Positions 1-43,131 of a stretch of DNA of 48,217 nucleotides are shown here, piece after piece (the stretch's first letter is position 1; each line of letters opens with the position of its first letter). The notes under the pieces were generated by a model. The model saw only the letters and a list, made by a program, of their open reading frames with translations. It did no database searches and was not told the DNA's origin. Position numbers and translations under genes: made by a program. Location: the NCBI RefSeq assembly GCF_002087085.1, contig NZ_MWQY01000027.1, positions 1 to 48,217 on the forward strand, written 5' to 3'. Source of the DNA: Marispirochaeta aestuarii. GTDB taxonomy: Bacteria > Spirochaetota > Spirochaetia > JC444 > Marispirochaetaceae.

Positions 1-23
1 TAACCTATAGCACATGTAAATTT

Positions 24-56
24 AAAAAGGGACTGCCTACTTAATAGACAGCCCCC
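24..56 (-). terminator. Rho-independent terminator of ilvB-ilvH
   Basis: Read on the minus strand, an 11-bp stem (plus-strand arms 29-39 and 45-55, two G-U pairs, 5-nt loop) is followed directly by five T (plus-strand A at 24-28) and an AT-rich stretch. It begins 22 bases beyond the ilvH stop codon, so it closes the ilvB-ilvH transcript. Confidence 0.85.
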
Positions 57-77
57 CGGATGAAAATGCTCAGCAGC

Positions 78-590
78 TCAGGTGATTCTTGAACCCTTGG
101 CCATGAGGATCTTTCCGGAGCGCACCATCTCCACGACACCGTAATGGCTGCAGATATTGTGGACCGTGTCCAGCTTTTCCGAATCCCCGGAGATCTCGAA
201 AGTGATTGTAGAATCACTGAGATCGACGATTTCTCCGTTGAAGGCGGAGGCCACCTGGAGAATTTCCGTTCTCTTTTCAGGAGGGCACTCCAGTTTGATC
301 AGCAGAAGTTCCTTCTGGATTACATTTTCGCTGGTATTGTCGGTGGCATGGACAACATCCACCAGTTTGTTCAGCTGCTTGAGAATCTGGTCCAGGGTTT
401 TTGCGTCCCCGGAAGCGACGATATTCATCTGGGAGAATTTCGGATCGTGCGCACCGGATACAACCAGGCTGTCAATGTTGTAGCCACGGCGGGCGAAGAC
501 CAGGGAGACCCTTATGAGCACCCCCGGTTTGTTGGCGACATAGAGACTGATTGTATGCTGGCGATAATCCTGTTGGGCTGCTGTGCTCAT
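78..590 (-). CDS. ilvH: Acetolactate synthase small (regulatory) subunit
   Basis: Regulatory subunit of acetohydroxyacid synthase, which binds valine and stimulates the catalytic subunit in the first common step of branched-chain amino acid synthesis. The 170-residue length is normal for IlvH/IlvN. An N-terminal ACT domain (about residues 12-85) opens with HTISLYVANKPGVLIRVS and contains the glycine-turn motif RRGYNIDSLVV; the C-terminal ACT-like half begins near residue 90 (ELLLIKLECPPEKRTEI). The ATG overlaps the ilvB stop by one base (TAATG), and AGGAGGT lies just upstream inside ilvB, so translation is probably coupled and the subunits made together. A terminator follows. ilvN is an equally acceptable symbol. 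Confidence 0.95.
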   Translation of the reverse strand: MSTAAQQDYRQHTISLYVANKPGVLIRVSLVFARRGYNIDSLVVSGAHDPKFSQMNIVASGDAKTLDQILKQLNKLVDVVHATDNTSENVIQKELLLIKLECPPEKRTEILQVASAFNGEIVDLSDSTITFEISGDSEKLDTVHNICSHYGVVEMVRSGKILMAKGSRIT

Positions 591-2308
591 TAGGTACCTC
601 CTGTGGGTTTGGCGAGTTTGCCGGTTTTCGGCACTTCCAGCAGCATCGCGCTGTAAGGCGCACCGGAGGGAATCATGGGAAAGACGTTGTCCTCTTTTTC
701 CACCTCTGCATCGATTACGCAGGGGCCGTCGTTGTATTCCAGGGCATTCCTGAGGACCCGGCGGACGTCCGCGGAGCGTTTAATCCGGAAGGCCTTGCAT
801 CCGTAACTCTCGGCGAGCTTTACGAAATTGGGGTTTCCTTCCATGTCTACCCCGGAAAGGCGGTTGTCGTAGAACATGTTCTGCCACTGCCGAACCATTC
901 CCAGGTAGTTGTTGTTGATGATGAGGATCTTGAGGGGAAGCTTGTGGATGACCGCGGTGGCCAGTTCGTTCAGGGTCATCTGGAAACCGCCGTCTCCGAC
1001 GATGGCAATTACGGTCTTATCCGGTTCCCCCAGGGCGGCGCCGATGGCCGCGGGAAATCCGAAACCCATGGTGCCGGCTCCACCGGAGGAAATCCACTGA
1101 TAGCGGTGCTTGATCAGGTAGTACTGGGCCGCCCACATCTGGTGCTGCCCGACGTCGGTGGTGACCACCGCTTCGCCGTTGGTAAGCTTGTATATCTCGT
1201 CAATTACATGCTCCGCCTTCAGTTTGCCTTCCTTGCGGTATTTCAGGGGGAACTTGCGGCGGAAGCGGCGGATATCCTGCATCCAGGCGGAGGTGTCTCC
1301 CGGCTCGACAACAGCGGCGATGGCTTCGACAACGTGCCGGGCGTCTCCGATGATGGCGCAGTCCACGGGGACCGACTTGTTGATCTCCGAGGGATCAATA
1401 TCGATGTGGATTTTTACCGCTCCTGCACAGAACTCGTCGAGTTTTCCGGTGATCCTGTCGTCCCACCGGGAACCGATGGACATGATGAGGTCGCAGTGTT
1501 CCACCGCCTTGTTGGCGTAGGCCGTACCGTGCATGCCGAGCATACCCAGGTTGAGTTCGTGGGTCTCGGGTACGCAGCCTTTGCCCAGGAGAGTGTTGAC
1601 CACCGGAACCTGGAGTTTCTCCGCCAGGTAGGTAATCGCTTTACCGGCATCGGATATGACCGCGCCGTGACCGACCAGCAGAAGGGGGCGTGATGCACGG
1701 CTGAGCATCTCCGCCGCGGTTTCGATATCCTCGATGTTTCCCTCCCTGGGAATCCTGTATCCCGGAAGGTGAAAATCCTCGCTGACTGCGGGATCGATAA
1801 GGGCGCTTGAAACGTCCTTCGGCAGGTCGATAAGAACAGGGCCCGGGCGGCCGGTGACTGCCAGATGGAAAGCTTCACGGACAATCCGGGGAATGTCCTG
1901 GGGCTCCTTTATGAGATAGGAGTGTTTTACCACCGGGTAGGATATTCCCGATACGTCCGCCTCCTGAAAGGCGTCGAGCCCCAGGTTTCCCGTGAGCTGC
2001 TGACCGCAGATGATTACCATGGGAACTGAATCCATGTGGGCTGTCATGATTCCCGTAATGGTGTTTGTCGCCCCGGGACCGGAGGTGACCAGAACGACTC
2101 CTGGTTTTCCTGTGGCCCGGGCAAAACCGTCGGCCATGTGGGTGGCACCCTGCTCATGCCGGGTGAGAATCAGCTTGATCGGGGAATCCACCAGGGCATC
2201 GAATACCGGGATGGCGTTTCCACCGGGATAGCCAAAAAGGTATTCGACTCCCTGCTGCTGGATGATATCCACCAGTACTTCGGCGCCGGTACGGAGGTTC
2301 TTTGTCAT
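590..2308 (-). CDS. ilvB: Acetolactate synthase large (catalytic) subunit
   Basis: Thiamine-diphosphate enzyme that condenses two pyruvates to acetolactate, or pyruvate and 2-oxobutyrate to acetohydroxybutyrate, in Val/Leu/Ile synthesis. At 572 residues it is full length. Visible are the N-terminal TPP-pyrimidine domain ([17 protein letters not shown] with the catalytic Glu in [17 protein letters not shown]), the central FAD-binding-type domain, and the C-terminal TPP-binding motif [15 protein letters not shown] ending in [12 protein letters not shown]. The ATG has GGAG nine bases upstream. It is cotranscribed with ilvH; expression may be tuned by the leader peptide described at 2339-2374. 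Confidence 0.96.
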
Positions 2309-2338
2309 ATTCTGTCTCCAATGTAACTGTATTTGCTG

Positions 2339-2374
2339 TTATCTTCCCCTGAAGGCACGGATAACAACCGGCAT
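2339..2374 (-). CDS. Candidate ilv leader peptide (MPVVIRAFRGR)
   Basis: Eleven-codon ORF on the ilvB leader, ATG at 2374 and TAA at 2341-2339, ending 30 nt before ilvB. Codons 3-5 are Val-Val-Ile, products of the pathway ilvB begins, as in known ilv attenuator peptides. The ATG lies 6 nt after the predicted -10 box (2386-2381), so it would be read as a leaderless ORF. The GTT ATC codons form one arm of a potential stem with GATAAC just downstream. No U-tract follows that stem, so classic transcription attenuation is not shown; translational coupling or stalling control is possible. The peptide and its role are inferences. Confidence 0.5.
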   Translation of the reverse strand: MPVVIRAFRGR

Positions 2375-2380
2375 TGAAGA

Positions 2381-2410
2381 ACTATAGGCCTGTCTGTTGG
2401 GGGTTGTCAA
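2381..2410 (-). promoter_or_regulatory. Sigma-70 promoter of ilvB-ilvH
   Basis: On the minus strand TTGACA (plus 2405-2410) and TATAGT (plus 2381-2386) are separated by 18 bp. Predicted start of transcription is about 2374, giving a leader of roughly 65 nt before ilvB that contains the candidate leader peptide. Confidence 0.75.
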
Positions 2411-2611
2411 TAGAAAACTAACGAAAAAACAGCTAAGTTCAATGAAAAACATAAAAATGCTAATAAAAATAACCAATAAATAAACAAATATCGGTAAAAA
2501 GAGCCAAATACCAAATAATTTTAACTAAAATAACGATAAACAAGTAGTGATTTTCGGATTGTGCTTCAGAAAAGTAAAAATACACACCTTTCCGTTAGTC
2601 TCTGTCCTGAG

Positions 2612-2640
2612 TTGACAATTTTTGAAGCTGTCTCTACAGT
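2612..2640 (+). promoter_or_regulatory. Sigma-70 promoter of ptsN, placed for a leaderless mRNA
   Basis: TTGACA at 2612-2617, 17-bp spacer, TACAGT at 2635-2640, then only 8 nt to the ATG at 2649. With transcription starting about 7 nt after the -10 box the message would have essentially no 5' untranslated region. No Shine-Dalgarno sequence precedes the ATG. Confidence 0.7.
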
Positions 2641-2648
2641 CTTTACCC

Positions 2649-3095
2649 ATGAACCTACGTAAAGTGTTGAGCCCCGAGCTCATCTCTCTGGGCCTGAAGG
2701 CTTCCACAAAACAGGAAGCTGTCGAAGAACTTGTCGATCTGCTTATGCAGGGAGGCAGGATTAATGACCGGGATGCCGCCCTTCAGGCAGTGCTGGAACG
2801 GGAATCCAAGATGTCCACGGGCATTCAGCACGGTGTTGCCATCCCCCACGGCAAGACCAGTGCGGTGAATGATCTTGTCGCCTGTGTGGCGGTAAAGCCC
2901 GAGGGAATTGATTTCGAATCTCTGGACGGAGAGCCGAGCACGATTTTTATCATGACTCTTTCTCCTCTGAACAAAACAGGACCCCATGTTCAGTTTCTGG
3001 CGGAGATAAGCCGTCTTTTGAAGACCGCAGAATCCCGGGAACGCATTCTGAAGGTTAGCTCAAAGCAGGAACTGCTTTCCGTTCTGCTGGAGTAA
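2649..3095 (+). CDS. ptsN: PTS EIIA-type nitrogen regulatory protein (PtsN)
   Basis: Cytoplasmic phosphocarrier of the nitrogen-related PTS (mannitol/fructose EIIA fold), usually a regulator of potassium and nitrogen homeostasis rather than of sugar uptake. The 148 residues cover one EIIA domain: SPELISLGLKAST, DRDAALQAVLERE, and the phosphorylation site GVAIPHGK with His67. An in-frame TTG at 2622 would add nine residues but falls inside the promoter spacer, so I chose the ATG at 2649, where family homology starts. The antiporter gene follows five bases after the stop, suggesting that PtsN controls or is co-regulated with ion transport. Confidence 0.85.
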   Translation: MNLRKVLSPELISLGLKASTKQEAVEELVDLLMQGGRINDRDAALQAVLERESKMSTGIQHGVAIPHGKTSAVNDLVACVAVKPEGIDFESLDGEPSTIFIMTLSPLNKTGPHVQFLAEISRLLKTAESRERILKVSSKQELLSVLLE

Positions 3096-40183: not shown

Positions 40184-41782
40184 TTACAGCTTAAGAAGCC
40201 GGGCGTAGGTGTCCAGGAGATCTCCCCGTTTTTCCGCTGCCCCCAGCACCTGACTGGTGAGGATCTTTCCCAGCTGTACTCCTTCCTGGTCAAAGGAGTT
40301 GATGTTCCAGATAAAGCCCTGGAACATGACCTTGTTCTCGAAATGCGCCAGCAGAGCCCCCAGGGCTTCCGGGTTGAGCTGTTCCCCGTATATCAGGCTC
40401 GAAGGACGGCCTCCGGGAAAATTTTTGTTCAGGTTGCTGTTTTTCTTCCCCGCGGCGAAGGCTACAATCTGGGCTGTCAGGTTGGCTTTGAGCTTCTGCT
40501 GACTCGTCGAGTTCTCGTATTCGGTGTCATAGCCGGTCTGGGACTTGACGAAGCCGATAAACTGCAGGGGAACGATGTCCGTACCCTGATGCAGAAGCTG
40601 GTAGAAGGAGTGCTGTCCGTTGGTTCCGGGTTCACCGAAGATTACCGGACCCGTGGAGTACGCCACAGCGCTGCCCTCCCGGTTTACCTGTTTGCCGTTG
40701 GATTCCATATCCAGCTGTTGAAGATGGGCGGGAAAACGGTGCAGCCCCTGGCTGTAGGGCAGGATGGCCGAGACGGGATATCCGCAGATGTTGCGTTCCC
40801 ACACCCCGATAAGGGCATCCATAAGGGCCGCATTGCGCCGTACATCCCCTTCCATGGCAGCTTTATCTGCCTGGTGGGCCCCTGCAAGCAGACGCTCAAA
40901 GATCTCCGGCCCGAAGGCAAGGCTCAGTACCACGCCTCCAACGGCGCTGGTTGAGGAGTAACGGCCGCCGATATAGTCATCGATAAAAAAGGAGTCCAGA
41001 AAGCCCGGAGCACCGGCAAGGGGGCTGGTCTCGGAGGTAACAGCCACAAAGTGCCGTTCCGGATCCAGCCCCGGGATTCCCGCCGAACGCATCATTCCGG
41101 CAACCAGAGCGCGATTGGTGAGGGTCTCCTGGGTAGTACCGCTCTTGGAGACCAGGATAAACAGTGTGCGTTCAAAATCGAGGCTGCTCAGGACTTCTTC
41201 CGCGTCGTCGGGGTCCACATTTGAGATAAAGCGTGCCTCCAGCAGGGGGGACTTGAGCTCAGTGCGGCACCAGTTTTTCAGGGCCAGATACAAAGCCCGG
41301 GGACCAAGGTCTGAGCCGCCGATTCCGATCTGGACAACCGTGGAGAAACTCTTGCCCGTCGATCCGGTGATCTCTCCCGCCCGCAGCCTGCGGCTGAAAT
41401 CGGCTATCCGTTTCTGCTGCTCCCGGTAAAATGCTCCGAGATCACGGTCTTTTTCCGTAACAGGGCCCGCAAGCTCTCCCCGGGTCAGATGGTGCAGTAC
41501 CCGGCGGTCCTCGCCGGTGTTCATCCTCTCGCCGCCGGCAAGAGCACGATATTTTTCTATACATTCTGTCTCGGCGGCCAGGTCGCTCAGGAGCCGGAGG
41601 ACCTTTTCGTTGACCTCTTTGGCGGCATAATTGTAGGTAAGTCCGCCCCCGGCGGCTATGCTGCAGCTCCTGATTCTTTCCGCGGAAAGAAGATCCGGCA
41701 GGGAAAGTCGCTCTTTTCCGGAGGAGTATTCTTCCTTCAACTTCCCATATGCGTCGGTTCTGTCCAGATTAAGATATTTCAC
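40184..41782 (-). CDS. pgi: Glucose-6-phosphate isomerase
   Basis: Interconverts glucose 6-phosphate and fructose 6-phosphate. 532 residues. Family motifs: VVQIGIGGSDLGPRALYLAL, LFILVSKSGTTQETLTN, FIDDYIGGRYSSTSAVGGVVLSLAFG, and GEPGTNGQHSFYQLLHQGTD; the last also contains the catalytic Glu and His. The start is GTG at 41782 with GGAG 6 nt upstream. A large inverted repeat lies between argG and this gene, so pgi may be partly separated from the arg operon. Confidence 0.95.
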   Translation of the reverse strand: MKYLNLDRTDAYGKLKEEYSSGKERLSLPDLLSAERIRSCSIAAGGGLTYNYAAKEVNEKVLRLLSDLAAETECIEKYRALAGGERMNTGEDRRVLHHLTRGELAGPVTEKDRDLGAFYREQQKRIADFSRRLRAGEITGSTGKSFSTVVQIGIGGSDLGPRALYLALKNWCRTELKSPLLEARFISNVDPDDAEEVLSSLDFERTLFILVSKSGTTQETLTNRALVAGMMRSAGIPGLDPERHFVAVTSETSPLAGAPGFLDSFFIDDYIGGRYSSTSAVGGVVLSLAFGPEIFERLLAGAHQADKAAMEGDVRRNAALMDALIGVWERNICGYPVSAILPYSQGLHRFPAHLQQLDMESNGKQVNREGSAVAYSTGPVIFGEPGTNGQHSFYQLLHQGTDIVPLQFIGFVKSQTGYDTEYENSTSQQKLKANLTAQIVAFAAGKKNSNLNKNFPGGRPSSLIYGEQLNPEALGALLAHFENKVMFQGFIWNINSFDQEGVQLGKILTSQVLGAAEKRGDLLDTYARLLKL

Positions 41783-41806
41783 CGGGGGCTCCTTATCTAT
41801 GGACGC

Positions 41807-41841
41807 CTCTAAAAACTGCGTAAAATACCGCGTTTTTAGAG
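41807..41841. repeat. Large inverted repeat between argG and pgi
   Basis: CTCTAAAAAC (41807-41816) and GTTTTTAGAG (41832-41841) are a perfect 10-bp match, extended inside by GCG/CGC with one bulged base. On the minus strand the descending arm ends in TTTTTAGAG, so T residues lie in the stem rather than after it. It could be a weak terminator, a processing site or a protein-binding palindrome. Confidence 0.5.
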
Positions 41842-41850
41842 CCGCCCGTT

Positions 41851-43131
41851 TTATTTGTCGTGGAAGGTGGCGGCCACGTGTTTCATCTCCGGGGCCTGTC
41901 CCTCCTCGGCATCTATTCTCTTATGTACCATAGCCTCAACACCGGTGGCAAGTCCGTAGAGATTGATGAATCCCGTGGCGTCGGTGTGGTCATAGGAGGA
42001 CTCCCCGAAGGATGCCAGATCCTCAAGATAGAGGGAATAGGGGGATTTTCTGCCGGCGATGATTACGTTGCCCTTGTAGAGAACCAGGCGTACCGAACCG
42101 GTTACGTACTGGTATGCCTTGTCCATGAAGGCGTCCATGGACTCACGGAAGGTGGTGTACCACTTGCCGGCGTAGACTATGTCGGCGTACTGCTGGCTCA
42201 TTTTGCGTTTAAAGCTCAGAGTGTTGAAGTCCATGGTCATCATCTCCAGTTCCGCCAGTGCCGTAAGGAGGATTTCTCCCGCCGGAGTTTCGTAGACTCC
42301 GCGGCTCTTCATGCCGACGACCCTGGTTTCCACCATGTCCGCCCTTCCGATGCCGTTTTCCGCTCCCAGCTTGTTCAATCGGGAAAGAAGCTCCACCGCG
42401 CCCAGGCGTTTGCCGTCTATTCCCACGGGGAATCCCTTCTCAAAGTCGATGGTGATCTCTGTCTCTTTATCCGGTGCTTCCTGGGGCGATTTGGTCAACT
42501 GGAACATCTCGTTCTTCGGTCTGTTCCAGGGATCTTCCAGGTCTCCGCCCTCGTGGCTCATGTGCCATATGTTCCAGTCCCGGGAGTAGATGTTTTTTTT
42601 GCTGATATTTCCCAGGGGAATACCCCGCTCCTGGGCGTATTCGATGGCGTCTTCCCGGCTGCTGATGTCCCAGACTCTCCAGGGGGCGATAACCTCGAGC
42701 TGGGGAGCCAGGGCTTTGTAGGTCAGTTCAAAGCGGACCTGGTCGTTGCCTTTTCCGGTACAGCCGTGGGCCACCGCGTTGGCATTCTCCTGAAGGGCGA
42801 CCTCTACCTGGCACTTGGCCTGCAGGGGCCTGGCGATGGAGGTACCAAGCAGATATTTTCCCTCATAGCGGGCCCCGGCCCGTACTATGCGGAACAGGAA
42901 ATCCCTGGCAAATTCCTCCCGTATGTCACGAATGTAAAGCTTGGAAGCCCCCGAGGCCAGGGCCTTCTTTTCCATTCCGTCCCAGTCCTCATCCTGACCT
43001 ACATTGGTACAGATTCCGACGATCTCGGCACCGTCGTAGTTTTCCTTGAGCCAGGGGATGATGATGGAAGTGTCCAGTCCGCCGGAATAGGCGAGTACGA
43101 TTTTCTTGATTTCTCTCTTGTGTTGTTTCAT
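41851..43131 (-). CDS. argG: Argininosuccinate synthase
   Basis: Joins citrulline and aspartate with ATP, the penultimate step of arginine synthesis. 426 residues, slightly longer than the ~400-residue type. The N-terminal PP-loop LAYSGGLDTSIIIPWL and the downstream VAHGCTGKGNDQVRFE, SREDAIEYAQERGIP, and EGGDLEDPWNRP motifs are all present. Last gene of the arg operon; GGAG lies 6 nt before the ATG, 18 bases after argD. argH, argF and argJ are not in the window. Confidence 0.96.
   Translation of the reverse strand: MKQHKREIKKIVLAYSGGLDTSIIIPWLKENYDGAEIVGICTNVGQDEDWDGMEKKALASGASKLYIRDIREEFARDFLFRIVRAGARYEGKYLLGTSIARPLQAKCQVEVALQENANAVAHGCTGKGNDQVRFELTYKALAPQLEVIAPWRVWDISSREDAIEYAQERGIPLGNISKKNIYSRDWNIWHMSHEGGDLEDPWNRPKNEMFQLTKSPQEAPDKETEITIDFEKGFPVGIDGKRLGAVELLSRLNKLGAENGIGRADMVETRVVGMKSRGVYETPAGEILLTALAELEMMTMDFNTLSFKRKMSQQYADIVYAGKWYTTFRESMDAFMDKAYQYVTGSVRLVLYKGNVIIAGRKSPYSLYLEDLASFGESSYDHTDATGFINLYGLATGVEAMVHKRIDAEEGQAPEMKHVAATFHDK

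Follow-up and report, generated by a model that had tools for sequence, protein, structure and literature searches.

The ilvBN leader of Marispirochaeta aestuarii carries, at its predicted extreme 5′ end, a probable short stem-loop whose 5′ arm doubles as the codons Val-Val-Ile of a putative leaderless peptide. In the predicted folds and translations, the stem persists across the three genus members compared, and the peptide does not. We give about even probability to the reading that this is a genus-specific, constitutive 5′-terminal stem-loop on the ilvBN mRNA, for which we infer folding in the cell and a stabilizing role. The Val-Val-Ile "sensor peptide" is most likely a by-product of the stem rather than a new kind of amino acid sensor.

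The ilvBN Operon and Its Predicted Leader

The window is a 48,217-nt stretch of the M. aestuarii genome (assembly GCF_002087085.1, contig NZ_MWQY01000027.1). At its left end, ilvB and ilvN are followed by an intrinsic-terminator-like hairpin with a T-run, and ilvBN therefore resembles a two-gene operon (Table 1). The ilvB promoter has an 18-bp spacer and agrees with the consensus at 11 of 12 positions; six bases beyond its −10 element, on the minus strand, an ATG (2374–2372) opens MPVVIRAFRGR, with Val-Val-Ile at codons 3–5 and a TAA stop (2341–2339) 30 nt before the ilvB start codon. Promoter, frame, and codons are all as the original prediction described them. The segment appears to be the 5′ leader of a two-gene ilvBN mRNA, with a putative start at or adjoining the ATG at 2374. 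It is 66 nt long and contains a single hairpin. No minus-strand terminator-like site was found in 1700–3000, in agreement with the earlier remark that a terminator with a U-run is missing. Rfam covariance models gave no match in the window at the gathering score, and a relaxed search (E up to 5) returned chance-level matches only, with no T-box, riboswitch, or known leader. The divergent neighbor of ilvB is a PTS IIA-like gene, toward which a second promoter match (TTGACA-17-TACAGT, window 2612–2640, plus strand) points.

Table 1. Features of the ilvBN locus in window coordinates
Feature	Position	Strand	Basis or remark
−35 element TTGACA, ilvBN promoter	2405..2410	−	Consensus scan
−10 element TATAGT	2381..2386	−	Consensus scan
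Short ORF MPVVIRAFRGR*	2339..2374	−	ATG at predicted +1, six bases after −10
5′ arm GTTGTTATC, exactly codons Val3-Val4-Ile5	2360..2368	−	
Hairpin loop	2344..2359	−	Alignment; 16 nt here, 15 nt in G003, diverged between sister species
3′ arm GATAACAGC, spanning the short-ORF stop codon	2335..2343	−	
Linker with ilvB ribosome-binding site TTGGAGA	2309..2334	−	Conserved in G003
ilvB, acetolactate synthase large subunit	590..2308	−	NCBIfam TIGR00118, 754.9 bits vs. cut-off 538.35
ilvN, acetolactate synthase small subunit	78..590	−	NCBIfam TIGR00119 and NF008864, over cut-off
Intrinsic-terminator-like hairpin and T-run 3′ of ilvN	23..57	−	Stretch 66–11 folds at −20.4 kcal/mol

The family comparison covered four genomes: that of the window (G000), G003 and G002 from the same genus, and G001, a family member from another genus (IlvB identity to G000 of 95%, 87%, and 79%, respectively). 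Two of the three genus members are closely related, and the G002 assembly has an estimated contamination of 12%. A wider survey added 29 further ilvB leaders from a phylum search, the promoters of which are consensus matches of uncertain assignment. TTGAC[AC] at −35 is common to G003, G002, and G001, and the −10 region CCTATAGT is kept in G003 and G002.

A Predicted Stem Is Kept in Three Genus Members

In the RNA fold, a 9-bp stem joins GTTGTTATC to GATAACAGC. The pairing of GTTATC with GATAAC proposed earlier is present, in a stem of nine rather than six pairs whose 3′ arm spans the short-ORF stop codon instead of following it. Folding predicts a stem in each of the three genus members (−12.8 kcal/mol in G000, −15.4 in G003, and −13.5 in G002), with z-scores that are weak in G000 (−0.35) and G003 (−1.30) and clearly low only in G002 (−2.84). 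Dinucleotide shuffles of the G000 leader produced a 9-bp stem in 5% of cases (1.2% if it had to start within +8), and stems of the length seen in G003 and G002 had shuffle frequencies of 0.65% and 1.7%, respectively. The combination of an ATG within a 5-nt window at +1 and at least three consecutive I/L/V codons among the first 12 is expected in ∼0.4% of leaders, or roughly 14% over the some 33 leaders compared. For a feature picked by eye, the stem chance and the codon-run chance are each modest alone.

The comparison within the genus nevertheless suggests more than coincidence. Judged from the alignments, a hairpin is able to form, conserved arms flank a diverging loop, and two-sided changes keep the pairing in G002. 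Both arms are identical between G000 and G003 (18/18 bases), whereas fourfold sites of ilvB are only 57% identical between these genomes; the segment therefore appears to be under selection. The two also have TTGACA-18-TATAGT, ATGCCGGTTGTTATCC, and GATAACAGCAAATACAG in common, with the promoter spacer and the loop diverged. In G002, the hairpin at this position is predicted to form from AAGCATTATC...GGTAATGT. By a hand-made alignment based on position, eight of the nine pairs counted from the loop are kept there (four unaltered, one altered in one arm only, and three altered in both arms: G-C to A-U, U-A to C-G, and U-G to G-U), and the ninth is lost. The loop between the compared arms measures 16 nt in G000, 15 nt in G003, and 8 nt in G002; the stem-loop occupies +7 to +40 in G000 and +3 to +26 in G002. 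The 5′-terminal stem-loop is thus kept as a structure in 3/3 genus members, a small sample in which G002 was aligned by hand. If ATG and stem were both accidents, resembling each other in two close species through common descent, the chance figures above would be compatible with this, but identity would then hardly be limited to the arms with their flanks, nor would a hairpin be expected at the same place in G002; we regard pure chance as distinctly unlikely.

Beyond the genus, G001 has a short leader with neither the hairpin nor a Val-Val-Ile peptide, and none of the 29 wider relatives has a stem of at least 8 bp that begins no more than 8 nt from the predicted start. On this survey, the hairpin looks like a gain in this genus.

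The same inverted repeat might instead be a DNA operator, at which a repressor seated over the transcription start would block ilvBN. The arms do lie just downstream of the −10 element, and they are identical in G003. However, an operator for one protein would not be expected to tolerate arm spacings of 16, 15, and 8 nt or the different arm sequences of G002, and no second intergenic copy of GTTATC...GATAACAG was seen in the four genomes, where the other two matches of the pattern fall in apparent coding DNA. The variable loop length and the tolerated G-U pairs fit an RNA better than a DNA operator, and we consider the operator very unlikely. A repeated element was likewise set aside, since no other intergenic copy turned up when the four family genomes were searched by pattern and by DNA sequence.

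The Short ORF Is Shared by Two Species

The start codon and the Val-Val-Ile codons of G000 recur unchanged in G003, where ATGCCGGTTGTTATC is identical despite diverged flanking DNA. The loop of G003 is 1 nt shorter, and its frame, peptide, and stop therefore differ from those of G000 after codon 5: the G003 version is MPVVILRLARDNSKYSKIGDRK, with a stop that overlaps the start codon of ilvB. G002 keeps the hairpin and has neither an ATG at +1 nor Val-Val-Ile. Past its first five codons, the short ORF is probably incidental. No +1 ORF with a comparable I/L/V run was found among the 29 further ilvB leaders, and a search for similar terminator-less leaders of ilvC and ilvD in the genus found no short I/L/V ORF. 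Conservation in relatives, on which the original prediction had staked the short ORF and its codons, extends to one sister species; beyond it, both are absent, which counts against the claim. Two distant relatives, G259 and G014 (leaders L015 and L029), have an ORF at the predicted +1 of ilvB whose TGA overlaps the ilvB ATG, as in G003; these ORFs are not rich in branched-chain codons.

Classical Attenuators in the Same Genomes

A second ilvB in G000, followed by ilvN and citramalate synthase, has a leader peptide rich in Ile and Leu, MLFNILSLIIILPIILIISPQSRGEYA, and then a strong terminator hairpin with a T-run (G000:C3, about 41760–41990); G003 and G002 have equivalents of this attenuator. 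Across the class, the leaders of this second paralog with a recovered branched-chain ORF (L140–L166, from 20 genomes) place the ATG 35–39 nt from the first TTGACA base in 20/20 cases, a result of geometry rather than of start mapping, from a search that allowed distances of 28–61 nt and met further in-frame starts at some loci. Leaderless leader peptides that begin at the predicted transcription start look class-wide on this geometry. It also makes a leaderless start at 2374 plausible, by analogy and as a predicted rather than mapped start. To this extent, the description of the ilvBN segment as a leaderless branched-chain leader stands: its ATG is at the predicted +1 as in the class leaders, and ATG and Val-Val-Ile are identical in G003.

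Other leaders in these genomes were noted in passing. A leuA-like gene (L183, L182, and L181 in G000, G003, and G002) has a Leu-rich leader ORF, 32 codons long in G000 and G003, with a terminator-like hairpin recognized by eye; in G000 and G003, a TTGAAT box stands 39 nt from its ATG. A third ilvB copy in G002 (G002:C394, about 235400–235630; L008) has a separate Val/Leu-rich leader ORF, MHIVVSLLVLLVVVVADDKLTG, plus a terminator. A second ilvC-like gene exceeds the family cut-off in G003 (G003:C6:64668–65591, L173) and not in G000 or G002.

A Stalled Ribosome Would Have Little to Act On

The main competitor to a constitutive stem-loop is a genuine leaderless sensor peptide that works without a terminator. 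A 70S ribosome would load on the 5′ AUG and, short of charged Val or Ile tRNA, stall at codons 3–5; the stall would hold the stem open and shield the 5′ end, raising the stability or translation of the ilvBN mRNA. The ATG at the predicted +1, at the 36-nt distance from TTGACA that the classical ilv leaders in these genomes also show, and the identity of ATGCCGGTTGTTATC in G003 against diverged flanks are what such a sensor would predict, and there are precedents in the Corynebacterium glutamicum ilv leader peptide, Sinorhizobium meliloti trpL, the mycobacterial cys leader peptides, and the ermC stall.

The original prediction had offered stalling that acts on ilvB translation as a possibility, which our comparisons do not support. 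First, the ilvB ribosome-binding site is not freed by masking of the 5′ arm: in G000, the predicted unpaired probability of its GGAG is 0.07 with the 5′ arm and 0.03–0.07 after masking of the first 15, 27, or 30 nt. Accessibility that does not change on masking argues against a switch, and an erm-type translational switch was rejected for this reason. Masking in G003 and G002 gave a single higher accessibility at one mask length each, which was not shared. Second, the start codon and Val-Val-Ile are missing in G002, which keeps the hairpin, and the frame, peptide, and stop of G003 differ. Transcription attenuation at the ilvBN leader was also rejected, terminator and antiterminator both being missing; the 3′ arm had no other partner in the fold, either with the 5′ arm present or with it masked, that could form a mutually exclusive antiterminator. 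In these models, a stalled ribosome has no evident target but the stem itself or the 5′ end, and no structure able to transmit the stall is apparent. Moreover, I/L/V codons make up 3/11 of the short ORF (Val3-Val4-Ile5), whereas the true leaders in these genomes contain long runs of them. Taken over all its forms, we judge a sensor unlikely. Its most specific form, by analogy with the ermC stall, would be 5′-end shielding: a terminator-free sensor in which a 70S ribosome stalled at Val-Val-Ile from the 5′ AUG keeps the stem open, guards the 5′ end, and raises ilvBN expression after initiation. We hold this version to be improbable.

A Constitutive Stem-Loop as the Preferred Reading

In the reading that we prefer, the functional part of the ilvBN leader would be the stem-loop at its extreme 5′ end, acquired in this genus, which would most likely protect the transcript from 5′-end-dependent decay constitutively. 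Val-Val-Ile would be one reading frame of the stem's 5′ arm, and amino acid sensing would be unnecessary to explain the codons. Several points count against a stabilizer. In G000 and G003, six bases stay unpaired ahead of the stem, more than expected of an ideal protector; ribosomes, if they start at the +1 AUG, would unwind the stem; and the comparison covers three genomes, two of them close, with weak z-scores in G000 and G003.

If the stem-loop reading holds, this is an ordinary 5′-end element on a housekeeping biosynthetic operon, and it illustrates how codon runs within a conserved stem can mimic a sensor peptide. If the sensor reading is true, the leader would exert attenuator-like control without a terminator or a ribosome-binding-site switch. 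True ilv attenuator leader peptides that start at the first bases of the transcript, class-wide, are a testable generality.

Comparison with Known Systems

Leaderless mRNAs are common in Leptospira (PMC5243855), and trpL is leaderless in S. meliloti (PMC7298713). So is the leader peptide of C. glutamicum ilvBNC (Morbach 2000, as cited in PMC11857589). By that account, it shares with the ilvBN segment an ATG where transcription starts (predicted, for ilvBN), the lack of a ribosome-binding site, early branched-chain codons, and a short ORF before ilvB; however, that leader is 292 nt long with three hairpins including a terminator, compared with 66 nt, one hairpin, and no terminator here, and the short ORF of ilvBN is not conserved in its genus. 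The ilv and leu attenuators found elsewhere in these genomes resemble the ilvBN leader in having branched-chain codons and an ATG 36–39 nt downstream of the −35 box, but their ORFs have ∼27–32 codons with long I/L/V runs and are followed by a strong terminator and T-run, neither of which the ilvBN leader has. Terminator-less cys leader peptides in mycobacteria and other Actinobacteria (PMC1262725) likewise place a short ORF with the relevant codons before a biosynthetic operon with no obvious terminator; they concern another amino acid and another phylum, and the ilvBN ORF is conserved in two species only.

A stalled ribosome stabilizes ermC mRNA, as described in PMC3997798, and 5′-terminal stem-loops stabilize mRNA themselves (Emory 1992; Bricker and Belasco 1999; both via PMC3997798). 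The closest parallel to our preferred reading is found among the latter. Although the sequence is unrelated, and although six unpaired 5′ bases precede the stem in G000 and two in G002, the ilvBN leader, in which we infer a similar role, resembles papA and related Escherichia coli mRNAs, as presented in that source, in carrying a short stem-loop at the 5′ end before the ribosome-binding site.
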